Positions 22,602 to 27,741 of a stretch of DNA of 29,994 bases are shown piece by piece. The notes beneath the pieces were generated by a model, which ran no database searches, was not told where the DNA came from, and saw nothing but the letters and a program-made list of their open reading frames with translations. The position numbers were made by a program, and so were the translations under genes. Numbering within the stretch: position 1 is the stretch's first letter; every line of letters starts with the position of its first letter. Origin of the DNA: a virus; the IMG/VR virus record IMGVR_UViG_3300037010_000712, positions 1 to 29,994 of that record. One strand, given 5' to 3'.

Positions 22602-22841
22602 TCATGAAAATACCGATTCGATTTCTTCTTCCAGGCGCTCACGCTCGCGGCTGTTGAGCTTCTTTTCGAGCCACGGCGCTAGACGGCAACGGCGGTCAAG
22701 GACGTGGTACTCGATGTCAGGCGGTGATGGAGGTCTCCAGAAATCAGCCTCGCCACCAATGCAACCCATGTCGGCTGGAGCGAAATACTTCACACGCACC
22801 ACGCACGGGATGCCTGCCACGCGGGTTTCAATGTCCATCAT
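22602..22841 (-). CDS. Small hypothetical early protein
   Basis: A 79-aa protein. The start is ATG 22841 (or 22838), which overlaps the stop of the membrane protein gene by one base. The protein (AGIPCVVRVKYFAPADMGCI, then a Pro/Glu segment PPSPPDIEYHVLDRR and a basic helix) has no recognised fold. The C-terminus is acidic (RERERLEEEIESVF). The long upstream extension of this frame is an artefact. It sits between the membrane protein and the exonuclease. Confidence 0.6.
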   Translation of the reverse strand: MMDIETRVAGIPCVVRVKYFAPADMGCIGGEADFWRPPSPPDIEYHVLDRRCRLAPWLEKKLNSRERERLEEEIESVFS

Positions 22842-23059
22842 CACAGCCACCCAAAAGCGACAAGCACCACAACGATCACGATCATGGCGATCATGATGGC
22901 CGTCATGCGATCTTCGTTGAGAATCTCGCGCCGCCCCGAGTCTTTGCTTAGAAGCGCCCTCTGGATGATGCTCGCATCGCTGTCCATCTCGGGACGGTGT
23001 TGCGCATGGTATGCCGAGCCGATCCGCAGGCCGGTTTTGGTTGTGTAGTGCGTTTCCAT
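22841..23059 (-). CDS. Small tail-anchored membrane protein, first leftward early gene
   Basis: A 72-aa protein from ATG 23059 behind AAAGGAGCAAGGA, a much better site than the upstream in-frame ATGs. A soluble N-terminal part (about 1-48) is followed by one membrane segment (MTAIMIAMIVIVVVLVAFGW) at the extreme C-terminus. As first gene of the leftward operon it is expressed early; membrane proteins in this place often serve in superinfection exclusion or host takeover, but this is unproven. Its ribosome-binding site can pair for nine bases with the candidate small RNA at 23515-23592. Confidence 0.72.
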   Translation of the reverse strand: METHYTTKTGLRIGSAYHAQHRPEMDSDASIIQRALLSKDSGRREILNEDRMTAIMIAMIVIVVVLVAFGWL

Positions 23060-23086
23060 TCCTTGCTCCTTTGTACGCATCCTCAT

Positions 23087-23232
23087 CTCGATGCGTTGAC
23101 CGCAGTTTACACCATGATGGCCGGGAAAAGTAAACCGCAGGAAACAAAATTTGAAACAAAGTGCATCAGGACGCGCTAGCCGTGCCCGGAGTCTGGCTCC
23201 CGTCGCGCGGATGCCGCCGTATACTTGAGTCC
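23087..23232. promoter_or_regulatory. Divergent early control region
   Basis: The 146 bases between the leftward early operon and the first rightward regulator gene. A leftward promoter can be drawn as TTTACT-17-TGTAAA (about 23105-23134). Both hexamers overlap GTTTAC (23105-23110) and GTAAAC (23130-23135), so a repressor bound there would block it. On the other side, TATACT at 23220-23225 is a good -10 for the rightward gene at 23233. A Cro- or CI-like protein is expected to act here, but no operator has been proven. Confidence 0.6.
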
Positions 23233-23233
23233 A
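23220..23233 (+). promoter_or_regulatory. -10 element of rightward regulator gene, possibly leaderless
   Basis: TATACT at 23220-23225 lies seven bases before the ATG at 23233, so transcription would start at or next to the start codon. No good -35 hexamer is visible at the expected place, so an activator may be needed. This resembles lambda cI made from PRM. Confidence 0.5.
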
Positions 23234-23463
23234 TGAACGACCAACCTACAGACGAACAGATCATGACGCGCGCGCTCGATCGGTGCGGCGGCAATGCCCG
23301 CGCGCTTGCTCGCGTGCTCGATGTGAAGCCCATGCGCGTGTACAAGTGGATCGAGCGCCGACGCCTAGCCGTTCCGTGGCGCTTGTACCTGTCAGCAGTG
23401 CTTGACGATCCGGCGTGGCCGCCGAAGGACAAGCTCTCGAAAAAGAAAAACCCGCCTGGGTGA
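23233..23463 (+). CDS. Small Cro/YdaS-like regulator
   Basis: A 76-aa protein with a helix-turn-helix region (IMTRALDRCGGNARALARVL, then DVKPMRVYKWIERRRLAV) followed by a short tail rich in Lys and Pro. This resembles small Cro or YdaS-type phage repressors. The start ATG 23233 lies seven bases after a TATACT -10 and has no real ribosome-binding site, hinting at leaderless expression. It is the first rightward gene at the divergent control region, the place of cro in lambdoid phages. The stop is followed by the region of the candidate small RNA on the other strand. Confidence 0.7.
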   Translation: MNDQPTDEQIMTRALDRCGGNARALARVLDVKPMRVYKWIERRRLAVPWRLYLSAVLDDPAWPPKDKLSKKKNPPG

Positions 23464-23514
23464 GGATGCGTTGCGCGCATAGCATTGGCGGGTGTTGTTG
23501 TCTGCATTGTAGGC

Positions 23515-23540
23515 AAAAAAATCCCCGCTCTGGGCGGGGA
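23515..23540 (-). terminator. Strong leftward intrinsic terminator
   Basis: Read leftward, CCCCGC pairs with GCGGGG (23534-23539 with 23523-23528, 5-base loop) and is followed by A and seven T (23521-23515). This is a textbook terminator, yet all confident genes to the right for 3.5 kb run the other way, so it serves only the short transcript from the promoter at 23597-23624. Confidence 0.9.
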
Positions 23541-23592
23541 CAAGCTGCGGGGAGACAGCAAGGAAGGAGGGGAGACACACCGATGGGTGTGT
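23515..23592 (-). ncRNA. Candidate small RNA, OOP-like position
   Basis: The leftward promoter at 23597-23624 would start RNA at about 23590-23592, and the terminator would end it at about 23515, giving about 76-78 nt. Parts in order: a 5' hairpin of ACACACC with GGUGUGU around a CAUC loop; a single-stranded pyrimidine-rich stretch (about 23542-23576) that contains CCUCCUU, the 16S anti-Shine-Dalgarno sequence; then a GC-rich terminator stem and seven U. No open frame with a ribosome-binding site is needed to explain it. Position and size recall lambda OOP RNA (77 nt, leftward, between cII and O). It does not overlap the 3' end of the upstream gene. Expression is untested. Confidence 0.7.
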
Positions 23593-23596
23593 CGAC

Positions 23597-23624
23597 ATTA
23601 TAGCAGCACCGCTGCGCGCGTCAA
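23597..23624 (-). promoter_or_regulatory. Near-consensus sigma-70 promoter for the small RNA
   Basis: Leftward: TTGACG (23624-23619), a 16-base spacer, and a perfect TATAAT (23602-23597). TGC just before the -10 makes it an extended -10 promoter too. The start would be about 23590-23592, 75-78 bases before the terminator. Confidence 0.8.
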
Positions 23625-23649
23625 GCTCCAGCTGCATCTCCATGATTGC

Positions 23650-23677
23650 TTGCGCATAGTTCGCGTTTTGTTATACA
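23650..23677 (+). promoter_or_regulatory. Promoter for second regulator and replication genes
   Basis: TTGCGC (23650-23655), 16-base spacer, then TATACA (23672-23677). Transcription would start about 23684, giving a short leader with AAAGGAG before ATG 23706. It diverges from the small RNA promoter 26 bases away, so the two may compete. Confidence 0.55.
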
Positions 23678-23705
23678 ATTTCGGCCCCGCACCAAAGGAG
23701 ACTGT

Positions 23706-23939
23706 ATGGAGCAGAAACAAGGACTACATCGAGCGATCAAGGAGGCTGGCGGGATCACCAAGCTTGCAAGAGACATCGGCAGTACCAAGCAGGGCGTATG
23801 GATGTGGGCGAATCGTCGCCGGGTGCCCGCGAAGTTTTGCCTCAAGATCGAGGCCGCGACAGGAGTTCCGTGCGAGGAACTGCGCCCAGATATCAACTGG
23901 AGCTACATGCGGCGGCGGCTCCAAGGCGGTTCGCAATGA
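23706..23939 (+). CDS. YdaS/Cro-like small regulator
   Basis: A 77-aa protein with the YdaS-type helix-turn-helix: LHRAIKEAGGITKLARDIGS, then TKQGVWMWANRRRVPAKFCL and IEAATGVPCEELRPDI. Such proteins act as Cro-type repressors or as antitoxins in phage modules. ATG 23706 follows AAAGGAG with proper spacing. The gene overlaps the DUF1376 start (ATGA), tying the regulator to replication gene expression. It is the second small regulator in this region; no toxin partner is visible. Confidence 0.82.
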   Translation: MEQKQGLHRAIKEAGGITKLARDIGSTKQGVWMWANRRRVPAKFCLKIEAATGVPCEELRPDINWSYMRRRLQGGSQ

Positions 23940-24793
23940 ACTACTACCCTTTCCACATCGGGGACTACGTAAGCGCGACGAGGCATCTCAGTTGGGAAGA
24001 GGATGCAGCTTTCCGCCGACTTCTTGACGTTTACTACCTGACTGAAAAGCCGCTCCCGGCAGAGCTGCGCTCCGTGTGCAGACTTGTTATGGCGCAGACC
24101 GAATCACAGCGCGAAGCGGTGCGCGTGGTTCTTGAAGAGTTCTTCGAGCTTACCGACGCCGGGTGGGTGAACAAGCGCGCGGACGAAGAAATTATCTCCA
24201 TGCTTGAGAAGCAGCAGAAGCAACGCGAGAAGGCTAACAGGCGGTGGGATGTGCAGCGCGCGAAGCCCGGCAATGCCGCTCCAGGCAATGCCGCAGCATC
24301 GCCGGATGATGCCGCGGCATGTAATCTCGATGCCGTGGCAATGCCACCAACACCAACACCAACACCAACACCAACACCAACACCAACACCAACACCAACA
24401 CCAACACCAAAGAAAGATAAGCGCACGCAGAGCGTGCGCAATAGCGCGCATGCCGCGCGCCTCACCGTTTGCCCGCCTGACGTTGATCCTCAGACGTTCA
24501 TCGACTGGATCGAAGTCCGCAAGGCAAAACGAGCAGGCCCGGTCACGCAAACCGTGCTCGACAGCATGAGGCGCGAAGCCGACAAGGCTGGTATCAACCT
24601 GCAAGACGCTATCGCCCATTGCTGCCTATCTGGATGGCAGGGCTTCCGGGCGGACTGGTACACGTCCGCGAAGCAGTCTGGCGGGCAGCATCCGGCGGGG
24701 CGGCGACCGTTTTTCAACCGGCAGATCGCGCTCGAAGAGGAAAACCGGCGAGTTGCACAGGAATGGCTTGCACAGCAAAGGAGCGAACAATGA
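23936..24793 (+). CDS. DUF1376 replication protein (YdaU/O-like)
   Basis: A 285-aa protein. The DUF1376 domain covers about residues 1-95: MNYYPFHIGDYVSATRHLSW, EEDAAFRRLLDVYYLTEKPL, then LEEFFELTDAGWVNKRADEE. Proteins with this domain take the place of the lambda O initiator in many phages. A perfect (TP)n linker at about 137-159, coded by eleven copies of a hexanucleotide, joins it to a C-terminal domain (about 170-285; DVDPQTFIDWIEVRKAKRAG, then GWQGFRADWY) like that of other phage replication proteins. ATGA overlaps couple it on both sides. Confidence 0.82.
   Translation: MNYYPFHIGDYVSATRHLSWEEDAAFRRLLDVYYLTEKPLPAELRSVCRLVMAQTESQREAVRVVLEEFFELTDAGWVNKRADEEIISMLEKQQKQREKANRRWDVQRAKPGNAAPGNAAASPDDAAACNLDAVAMPPTPTPTPTPTPTPTPTPTPTPKKDKRTQSVRNSAHAARLTVCPPDVDPQTFIDWIEVRKAKRAGPVTQTVLDSMRREADKAGINLQDAIAHCCLSGWQGFRADWYTSAKQSGGQHPAGRRPFFNRQIALEEENRRVAQEWLAQQRSEQ
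24345..24410 (+). repeat. Hexanucleotide microsatellite (CACCAA x 11) in replication gene
   Basis: Eleven perfect tandem CACCAA units (66 bases). Each unit codes for one Thr-Pro pair, so changes in copy number keep the frame and only change linker length. Perfect copies at the DNA level suggest recent slipped-strand expansion. Confidence 0.95.
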
Positions 24794-27066: not shown

Positions 27067-27086
27067 GGGGCTTGCGCCCCTTTGTT
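27067..27086. terminator. Probable terminator between convergent genes
   Basis: GGGGC (27067-27071) pairs with GCCCC (27076-27080), 4-base loop, followed rightward by TTTGTT. Short but placed exactly between the rusA stop and the end of the leftward cassette, so it may act in both directions. Confidence 0.55.
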
Positions 27087-27354
27087 ACTTTCGGATCACT
27101 GCGGCGGAATACTTGCCGCCGTGCTCGTCGTAGAGATACCCAACATCTCCGCATTGATAGATCACTTCATCGCTCTCTTTCGCCTCATCAGTTAGGGAGC
27201 ATCCTTTGATGCTCTCAAGGCCGCTGAGGTCAAACTGCTCTGGATCAATGTCTACCGAGGCCAGCACGCGCATAACTTCGGCCTTGATGTCGCCTCCGTC
27301 TGGAACGACACCGTAGAGGACGCCATCAATCAGCGCGATCGTGTAGGTGTTCAT
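27085..27354 (-). CDS. Small acidic protein in reversed cassette
   Basis: An 89-aa protein with many more acidic than basic residues (for example DIDPEQFDL, then LTDEAKESDEVIYQCGDVGY). AAAGGAGCAAGACA before ATG is a strong site, nearly the same as that of its upstream partner. I recognise no family. Small, acidic, early-type proteins in moron-like cassettes include DNA mimics and anti-defence proteins, but that role is only inferred. The gene is oriented against both the genes before and after the cassette. Confidence 0.68.
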   Translation of the reverse strand: MNTYTIALIDGVLYGVVPDGGDIKAEVMRVLASVDIDPEQFDLSGLESIKGCSLTDEAKESDEVIYQCGDVGYLYDEHGGKYSAAVIRK

Positions 27355-27378
27355 TGTCTTGCTCCTTTGACTGCACGT

Positions 27379-27678
27379 TTAGTTGTGCGCAAATGCATGT
27401 TCGCAGTAGTACTGCATCACTTCCTCGGCGAGCTCTTCGCAAACTGCGCACAACGTAGTGTGCTTAGCTCCGAACATCTTTATCCAATACTCATGGCCGC
27501 CTGAGTATCCAAGTGTGATACGTCTCCTGTTGATGATGATTTCATTTTTGGCCCCTGCGCTCCAGGTCATTTTGTCGAACGAGCGCGCAAGTGCTCGCAC
27601 CGCGTCTTGATACCACTCGGGGCATGTTTCATAACTGCGCTGAACCTTAATGTCGAAGGTATGGGATTCTGTTTGCAT
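27379..27678 (-). CDS. Hypothetical protein, first gene of reversed cassette
   Basis: A 99-aa protein from ATG 27678 behind AAGGAGCAAGAC. The frame extends upstream to 27750 but that part lies in the leader. The protein has a mixed fold with DIKVQRSYETCPEWYQDAVR, RRRITLGYSGGHEYWI and a C-terminal helix with several Cys and His residues (TTLCAVCEELAEEVMQYYC). Family unknown. Base composition is AT-richer than the neighbours. It is expressed from its own promoter at 27742-27769. Confidence 0.68.
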   Translation of the reverse strand: MQTESHTFDIKVQRSYETCPEWYQDAVRALARSFDKMTWSAGAKNEIIINRRRITLGYSGGHEYWIKMFGAKHTTLCAVCEELAEEVMQYYCEHAFAHN

Positions 27679-27741
27679 GTCTTGCTCCTTCCCCTGAGCC
27701 CCAGGGATCGGGTGGCAGCTCCGCGCTGTCAATGGATAGGC

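Follow-up and report, generated by a model that had tools for sequence, protein, structure and literature searches.

We describe a short leftward transcription unit in a viral sequence of 29,994 nucleotides (IMG/VR record IMGVR_UViG_3300037010_000712, positions 1 to 29,994; hereafter, the window), which very probably represents a genuine small RNA (sRNA) gene and is present in its entirety in nine other viral contigs. The most likely, if still tentative, function of this RNA is that of a self-standing, trans-acting phage sRNA that would mask the ribosome-binding sites (RBS) of leftward phage genes, in particular the first gene of the leftward early operon. We infer transcription, pairing in the cell and the direction of regulation from sequence elements, conservation, predicted structure and complementarity.

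Anatomy and genomic context of the probable sRNA locus

The unit consists of the following elements:

23619..23624 (-): -35 box TTGACG of the leftward promoter, recognized by its sequence
23597..23602 (-): TG-extended -10 box TATAAT
23515..23593 (-): predicted sRNA of 76-79 nt, with the 5' end placed at ~23590-23593 from the fold and the conserved unit
23574..23593 (-): predicted 5' hairpin GACACACC-CAUC-GGUGUGUC, with hairpins of differing sequence at the equivalent place in relatives
23553..23568 (-): predicted pairing region UCCUUCCUUGCUGUCU, which includes the invariant C-N-UGCU core
23544..23559 (-): predicted middle hairpin GCUGU-CUCCCC-GCAGC with a C/U-rich loop
23515..23541 (-): intrinsic terminator, an 8-pair stem followed by seven T
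23440..23492 (-): second terminator-like hairpin CCCGCC...GGCGGG followed by a T-rich run, behind the first terminator (by reading; also in L006)

The promoter and the terminator are real, and their combination in one unit is beyond chance. As the preliminary description of this DNA had proposed, the promoter is near-consensus (TTGACG-16-TATAAT with TG ahead of the -10 box, spanning 23624-23597(-)); it is the sole match in the window at no more than one mismatch, with 0.08 expected and at least one match in 7 of 100 shuffled sequences. The -35 box reads TTGACC in L004, L006 and L010. The terminator with seven T that had been placed about 75 nt past the promoter was found as well (stem 23541-23521(-)), and the claimed layout of a 5' hairpin, a pyrimidine-rich middle and a terminator is predicted by folding (z -5.0), with an unpaired pyrimidine stretch followed by a small middle hairpin in which the UGCU of the window-type RNA is half buried. 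The RNA has no ATG of its own and no match in Rfam at gathering thresholds.

The flanking genes are:

23233..23463 (+): HTH1, a 76-aa helix-turn-helix protein with a weak YdaS-type HTH, convergent to the sRNA and its constant neighbor
23706..23939 (+): YdaS/Cro-like regulator, upstream of the sRNA promoter
22841..23059 (-): opens the leftward early operon and encodes a small protein of 72 aa whose C-terminus is hydrophobic; best predicted target
22601-21471 (-): YqaJ exonuclease, leftward early operon
21469-20558 (-): RecT, leftward early operon

The gene for the YdaS/Cro-like regulator is followed, rightward, by that of an O-like primosomal protein; YdaS has been argued to be Cro-like in function in a lambdoid prophage (PMC8630535). 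A run of CCAACA repeats (Thr-Pro codons) lies within the O-like gene (24340-24400 (+)) and is found in the relatives too. The leftward operon starts at 23059 or 23086, ~0.45 kb beyond the sRNA terminator, and includes the YqaJ exonuclease and RecT, so the earlier statement that no confident leftward gene follows for 3.5 kb was mistaken. Genes for a dUTPase, a helicase and a methyltransferase come later in the leftward direction. By reading, the operon has a weak promoter-like site of its own (23134-23104, spacing 19). No repressor gene is present between HTH1 and YdaS in the window. At the start of HTH1, the sequence GTATACTTGAGTCCATG (23220-23235 (+)) places a -10-like box just 7 nt before the ATG; it is kept in relatives, which suggests that the HTH1 mRNA is leaderless. 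The sole lead to a host is a metagenome-assembled genome of Burkholderiales with a RecT piece that is 80% identical.

Conservation in related phages

Searches with YdaS, RecT, HTH1, an RNA model and exact DNA patterns all retrieved an identical set of contigs. The search for this layout in related phages that the preliminary description had suggested yielded nine other viral contigs with the whole unit (L003, L004, L006-L009, L010, L011 and L012), all of which keep the -10 box, the 5' hairpin, the pyrimidine-rich middle, the small middle hairpin and the terminator; a shortened version is present in two contigs (L002 and L107). The -10 box and the C-N-UGCU motif are invariant in all six aligned sequences. 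The spacer between the sRNA promoter and YdaS shows only the identity expected of random sequences, even in a case in which the aligned bases of the RNA reach 95% identity. Because the unit is conserved in relatives, a self-standing phage sRNA is well supported.

The distance from the HTH1 stop to the end of the sRNA is 7, 7, 7, 37 and 51 nt in five types, the last value being that of the window; in the L006-type contigs, the gap is 619 nt and is filled by an inserted 127-aa gene (L006 3200-3583 (-)). Every type has a predicted 5' hairpin, whose stem sequence differs from type to type; it is significant in five of the six sequences (p 0.00-0.03), the exception being the L003 type, where it is predicted but not significant. 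Its register slides between types, so that RNAalifold missed it, and strict column covariation is weak. As judged from these models, the 5' hairpin is kept in place; pair-by-pair compensation is not claimed.

The heptamer CCUCCUU, identical to the 16S rRNA anti-Shine-Dalgarno sequence and previously taken to be the core of the RNA, is indeed present at 23570-23564(-) but is neither enriched (two CCTCCTT in the window vs 2.75 expected) nor conserved: it is confined to the window, L006 and L010 types and is absent from L004, L012 and L003. The invariant core is C-N-UGCU and not this heptamer, which therefore weakens the reading of the RNA as a general mimic of 16S rRNA. Nor is the six-codon frame that had been pointed out on the opposite strand maintained: by direct reading, it is open beyond six codons in L006 and lacks an ATG in L004 and L012.

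Outside this set of contigs, no near relatives of the window were detected by DNA comparison in INPHARED, and no HTH1 relatives were detected in bacterial genomes. In L030, which encodes an HTH1-like protein (42% identical), reading of the sequence revealed no unit of this kind. The covariance model produced 25 matches in 21 of 201 bacterial genomes; the five readable ones among the eight top matches fetched are plain terminators with the same stem and were rejected as homologues of the sRNA, and the matches in L116 and L127 are likewise terminators.

Two further observations concern the region upstream of the sRNA promoter. A palindromic 12-mer similar to ACCTATCGAGGT is found there in L003, L004, L006, L010 and L012 (for example, G001:2425-2436 and L010:3045-3056) and is absent in the window; it is possibly an operator. 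In L012 (~2110-2200), about four direct repeats of TGACCTGCATATCTATGCG reach into the -35 region of the sRNA promoter.

Predicted targets of the sRNA

Three copies of the decamer AAGGAGCAAG are present in the window, where 0.05 would be expected, and every one of them is the RBS of a leftward gene:

23062..23071 (-): RBS of gene 22841-23059, conserved in relatives
27681..27690 (-): RBS of leftward gene 27379-27678, second possible target
27358..27367 (-): RBS of leftward gene 27085-27354, third possible target

The latter two genes form a small leftward pair among rightward genes, with an 11-of-12 promoter TTGACA-16-TATCAT at 27769-27742(-).

For each phage, the pairing of its own RNA with the translation starts of the 44 window genes or their counterparts was scored, using an interaction program of our own that adds opening costs; it replaced Vienna duplex_subopt with accessibility, which missed short pairings. 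In the window, L004, L012 and G001, RNA positions ~25-42 are predicted to pair with positions ~-11..+4 of gene 22841-23059 (-9..-1 in G001), so that in four phages the UGCU region faces the conserved RBS AAGGAGCAA of the first leftward gene:

Window: UCCUUCCUUGCUGUCU with AGGAGCAAGGAAUGGA
L012: CCUUUCCAUGCUCCU with AGGAGCAAGGAAUGG
L004: UCCAUUUCCAUGCUCCU with AGGAGCAAUGAAUGGA
G001: UUGCUCCUU with AAGGAGCAA

For G002 (L006 type) and L010, the inclusion of opening costs shifts the preference to a CUCCUUC pairing of 7 bp at -13..-7. The accessibility-aware rank of this gene across the six phages is 2/44, 4/17, 1/10, 1/8, 3/10 and 1/3. The top rank in the window belongs to gene 13572, and a pyrimidine-rich RNA pairs with many ribosome-binding sites.

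Composition-preserving shuffling of the RNA middle only was applied to seven genes. For gene 22841-23059, none of the 60 shuffled RNA sets matches the joint score over six phages, and this gene alone beats the shuffles; for the other six genes, 15 to 55 of the 60 shuffles are equal or better. YdaS, HTH1, the exonuclease, the O-like gene and other starts, which do no better than with shuffled RNAs, were accordingly discarded as common targets. With 500 shuffles on three representatives, seven reach the score of the target (p ~0.014, for one of seven genes tested). The values for single phages are 0.25, 0.05 and 0.004, the window RNA alone being unremarkable (25% of shuffles equal it). The joint p of about 0.01, before correction for multiple genes, makes the assignment of gene 22841-23059 as a target suggestive and not proof, because several genes were tested and the phages are related. 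Gene 27379-27678 was rejected as the single target: it pairs strongly in the window, but its only relative is in a contig without the full RNA.

Under the mechanism that we propose, a non-coding RNA of ~78 nt would be transcribed between a near-consensus promoter and a terminator that are both its own; the bases in and around the invariant UGCU would pair with ribosome-binding sites of the AAGGAGCAA type, mainly that of the first leftward early gene, with two further leftward genes of the window sharing the site. Such pairing would cover the Shine-Dalgarno sequence and the start codon and thereby lower translation. Of the earlier proposal of a trans-acting or ribosome-site-masking RNA, this much stands as the best-supported function, whereas the general 16S-mimic form of it is weakened.

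Comparison with known phage RNAs and alternative explanations

The sRNA belongs to the known class of phage regulatory RNAs that includes OOP, sar and c4 (PMC12197685) but is a member of none of these families. Like lambda OOP (77 nt), it is a short leftward RNA with its own promoter and terminator, here recognized from sequence elements alone, and it is convergent to a small rightward regulator gene and located upstream of an O-like replication gene (PMC12197685, PMC5869508). The previously noted likeness to OOP in size and place holds at the level of sequence elements. However, 52 bases of OOP overlap with the 3' end of cII, whereas the sRNA does not overlap HTH1, from which it is separated by 51 nt in the window; furthermore, it lies before the Cro-like gene and OOP lies after it, and no LexA-type box CTGT-N8-ACAG, a feature of lambda OOP, was found by reading in 23580-23710. 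P22 sar and P1/P7 c4 are small RNAs of phage regulatory regions that block phage mRNA at the RBS (PMC12197685). These RNAs act on ant, whereas no ant gene is opposite the sRNA, the opposite strand being the HTH1-YdaS intergenic region, and the predicted target, ~0.45 kb distant, encodes a small protein and would pair with the sRNA over a short, imperfect stretch. In style, the RNA resembles, without membership, anti-Shine-Dalgarno sRNAs such as alpha-r14/NfeR1 of Rhizobiales, which has three hairpins and C/U-rich unpaired motifs and occludes the RBS of several mRNAs (PMC10746234). The alpha-r14 RNA is chromosomal and carries an identical, unpaired CCUCCUCCC in each hairpin; the phage RNA has no such repeat, its core is UGCU(CCU), and CCUCCUCCC is absent.

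The strongest rival of trans-acting RBS masking, although itself rather unlikely, is cis-antisense action similar to that of OOP. Here, the HTH1 transcript would read into the RNA locus, with a perfect duplex being cut or transcription being blocked, so that either HTH1 expression is lowered or read-through from HTH1 into the YdaS-replication operon is stopped. The sRNA is always convergent to HTH1, within 7 to 51 nt in the five types listed above, and a terminator scan detected no rightward terminator between the two. The lack of overlap with the HTH1 reading frame speaks against such action but is a weaker argument than it had been made, because the OOP-guided RNase III cut is itself 12 nt downstream of cII (PMC5869508) and because three relatives have just 7 nt between the HTH1 stop and the end of the sRNA. 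Also against it are the 127-aa gene of the L006-type phages, which keeps HTH1 and the sRNA 619 nt apart, and the conserved unpaired C-N-UGCU, which a fully complementary antisense RNA does not need. Improbable is a role in host takeover, with host mRNAs as the main targets and the pyrimidine-rich stretch acting as an anti-Shine-Dalgarno sequence of general use: in the window, L006 and L010 types, CCUCCUU and GUCUCC lie in unpaired or loop positions, and bacterial sRNAs of this style exist (PMC10746234), but L004, L012 and L003 have no CCUCCUU.

The two remaining explanations appear highly improbable. The locus might be an inert remnant, a promoter and a terminator left behind after the loss of a leftward repressor gene; the L116 and L127 prophages, which have a related RecT, carry a CI-like gene, which the window lacks between HTH1 and YdaS, and a similar terminator in the stretch before the recombination genes. 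Conservation of the internal sequence, the hairpins and the UGCU core across diverged phages argues against this. The least probable explanation is a leader or attenuator of the leftward early operon, in which transcription stops at the terminator unless an antitermination factor permits it to read on. The strong promoter, followed after 75 nt by a terminator, does point at that operon, but the oppositely directed HTH1 sits in between, the second leftward terminator-like hairpin lies behind the first one in the window and L006, and the operon has its own weak promoter-like site.

A far-reaching extension of RBS masking, which we consider distinctly unlikely, is that this is a new RNA family, encoded in the immunity region, that controls a regulon of leftward genes marked by AAGGAGCAAG in phages with no repressor at the usual place; if so, the RNA would partly replace the repressor in the control of the left operon. 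Phage sRNAs whose target in the phage is known are, to our knowledge, few. The present sRNA combines an anatomy that is conserved among a group of uncultured phages, the lack of an Rfam entry and a short list of candidate ribosome-site targets. If the proposed masking is right, phages with an unusual immunity region would have an additional, post-transcriptional layer of control over their left early operon.
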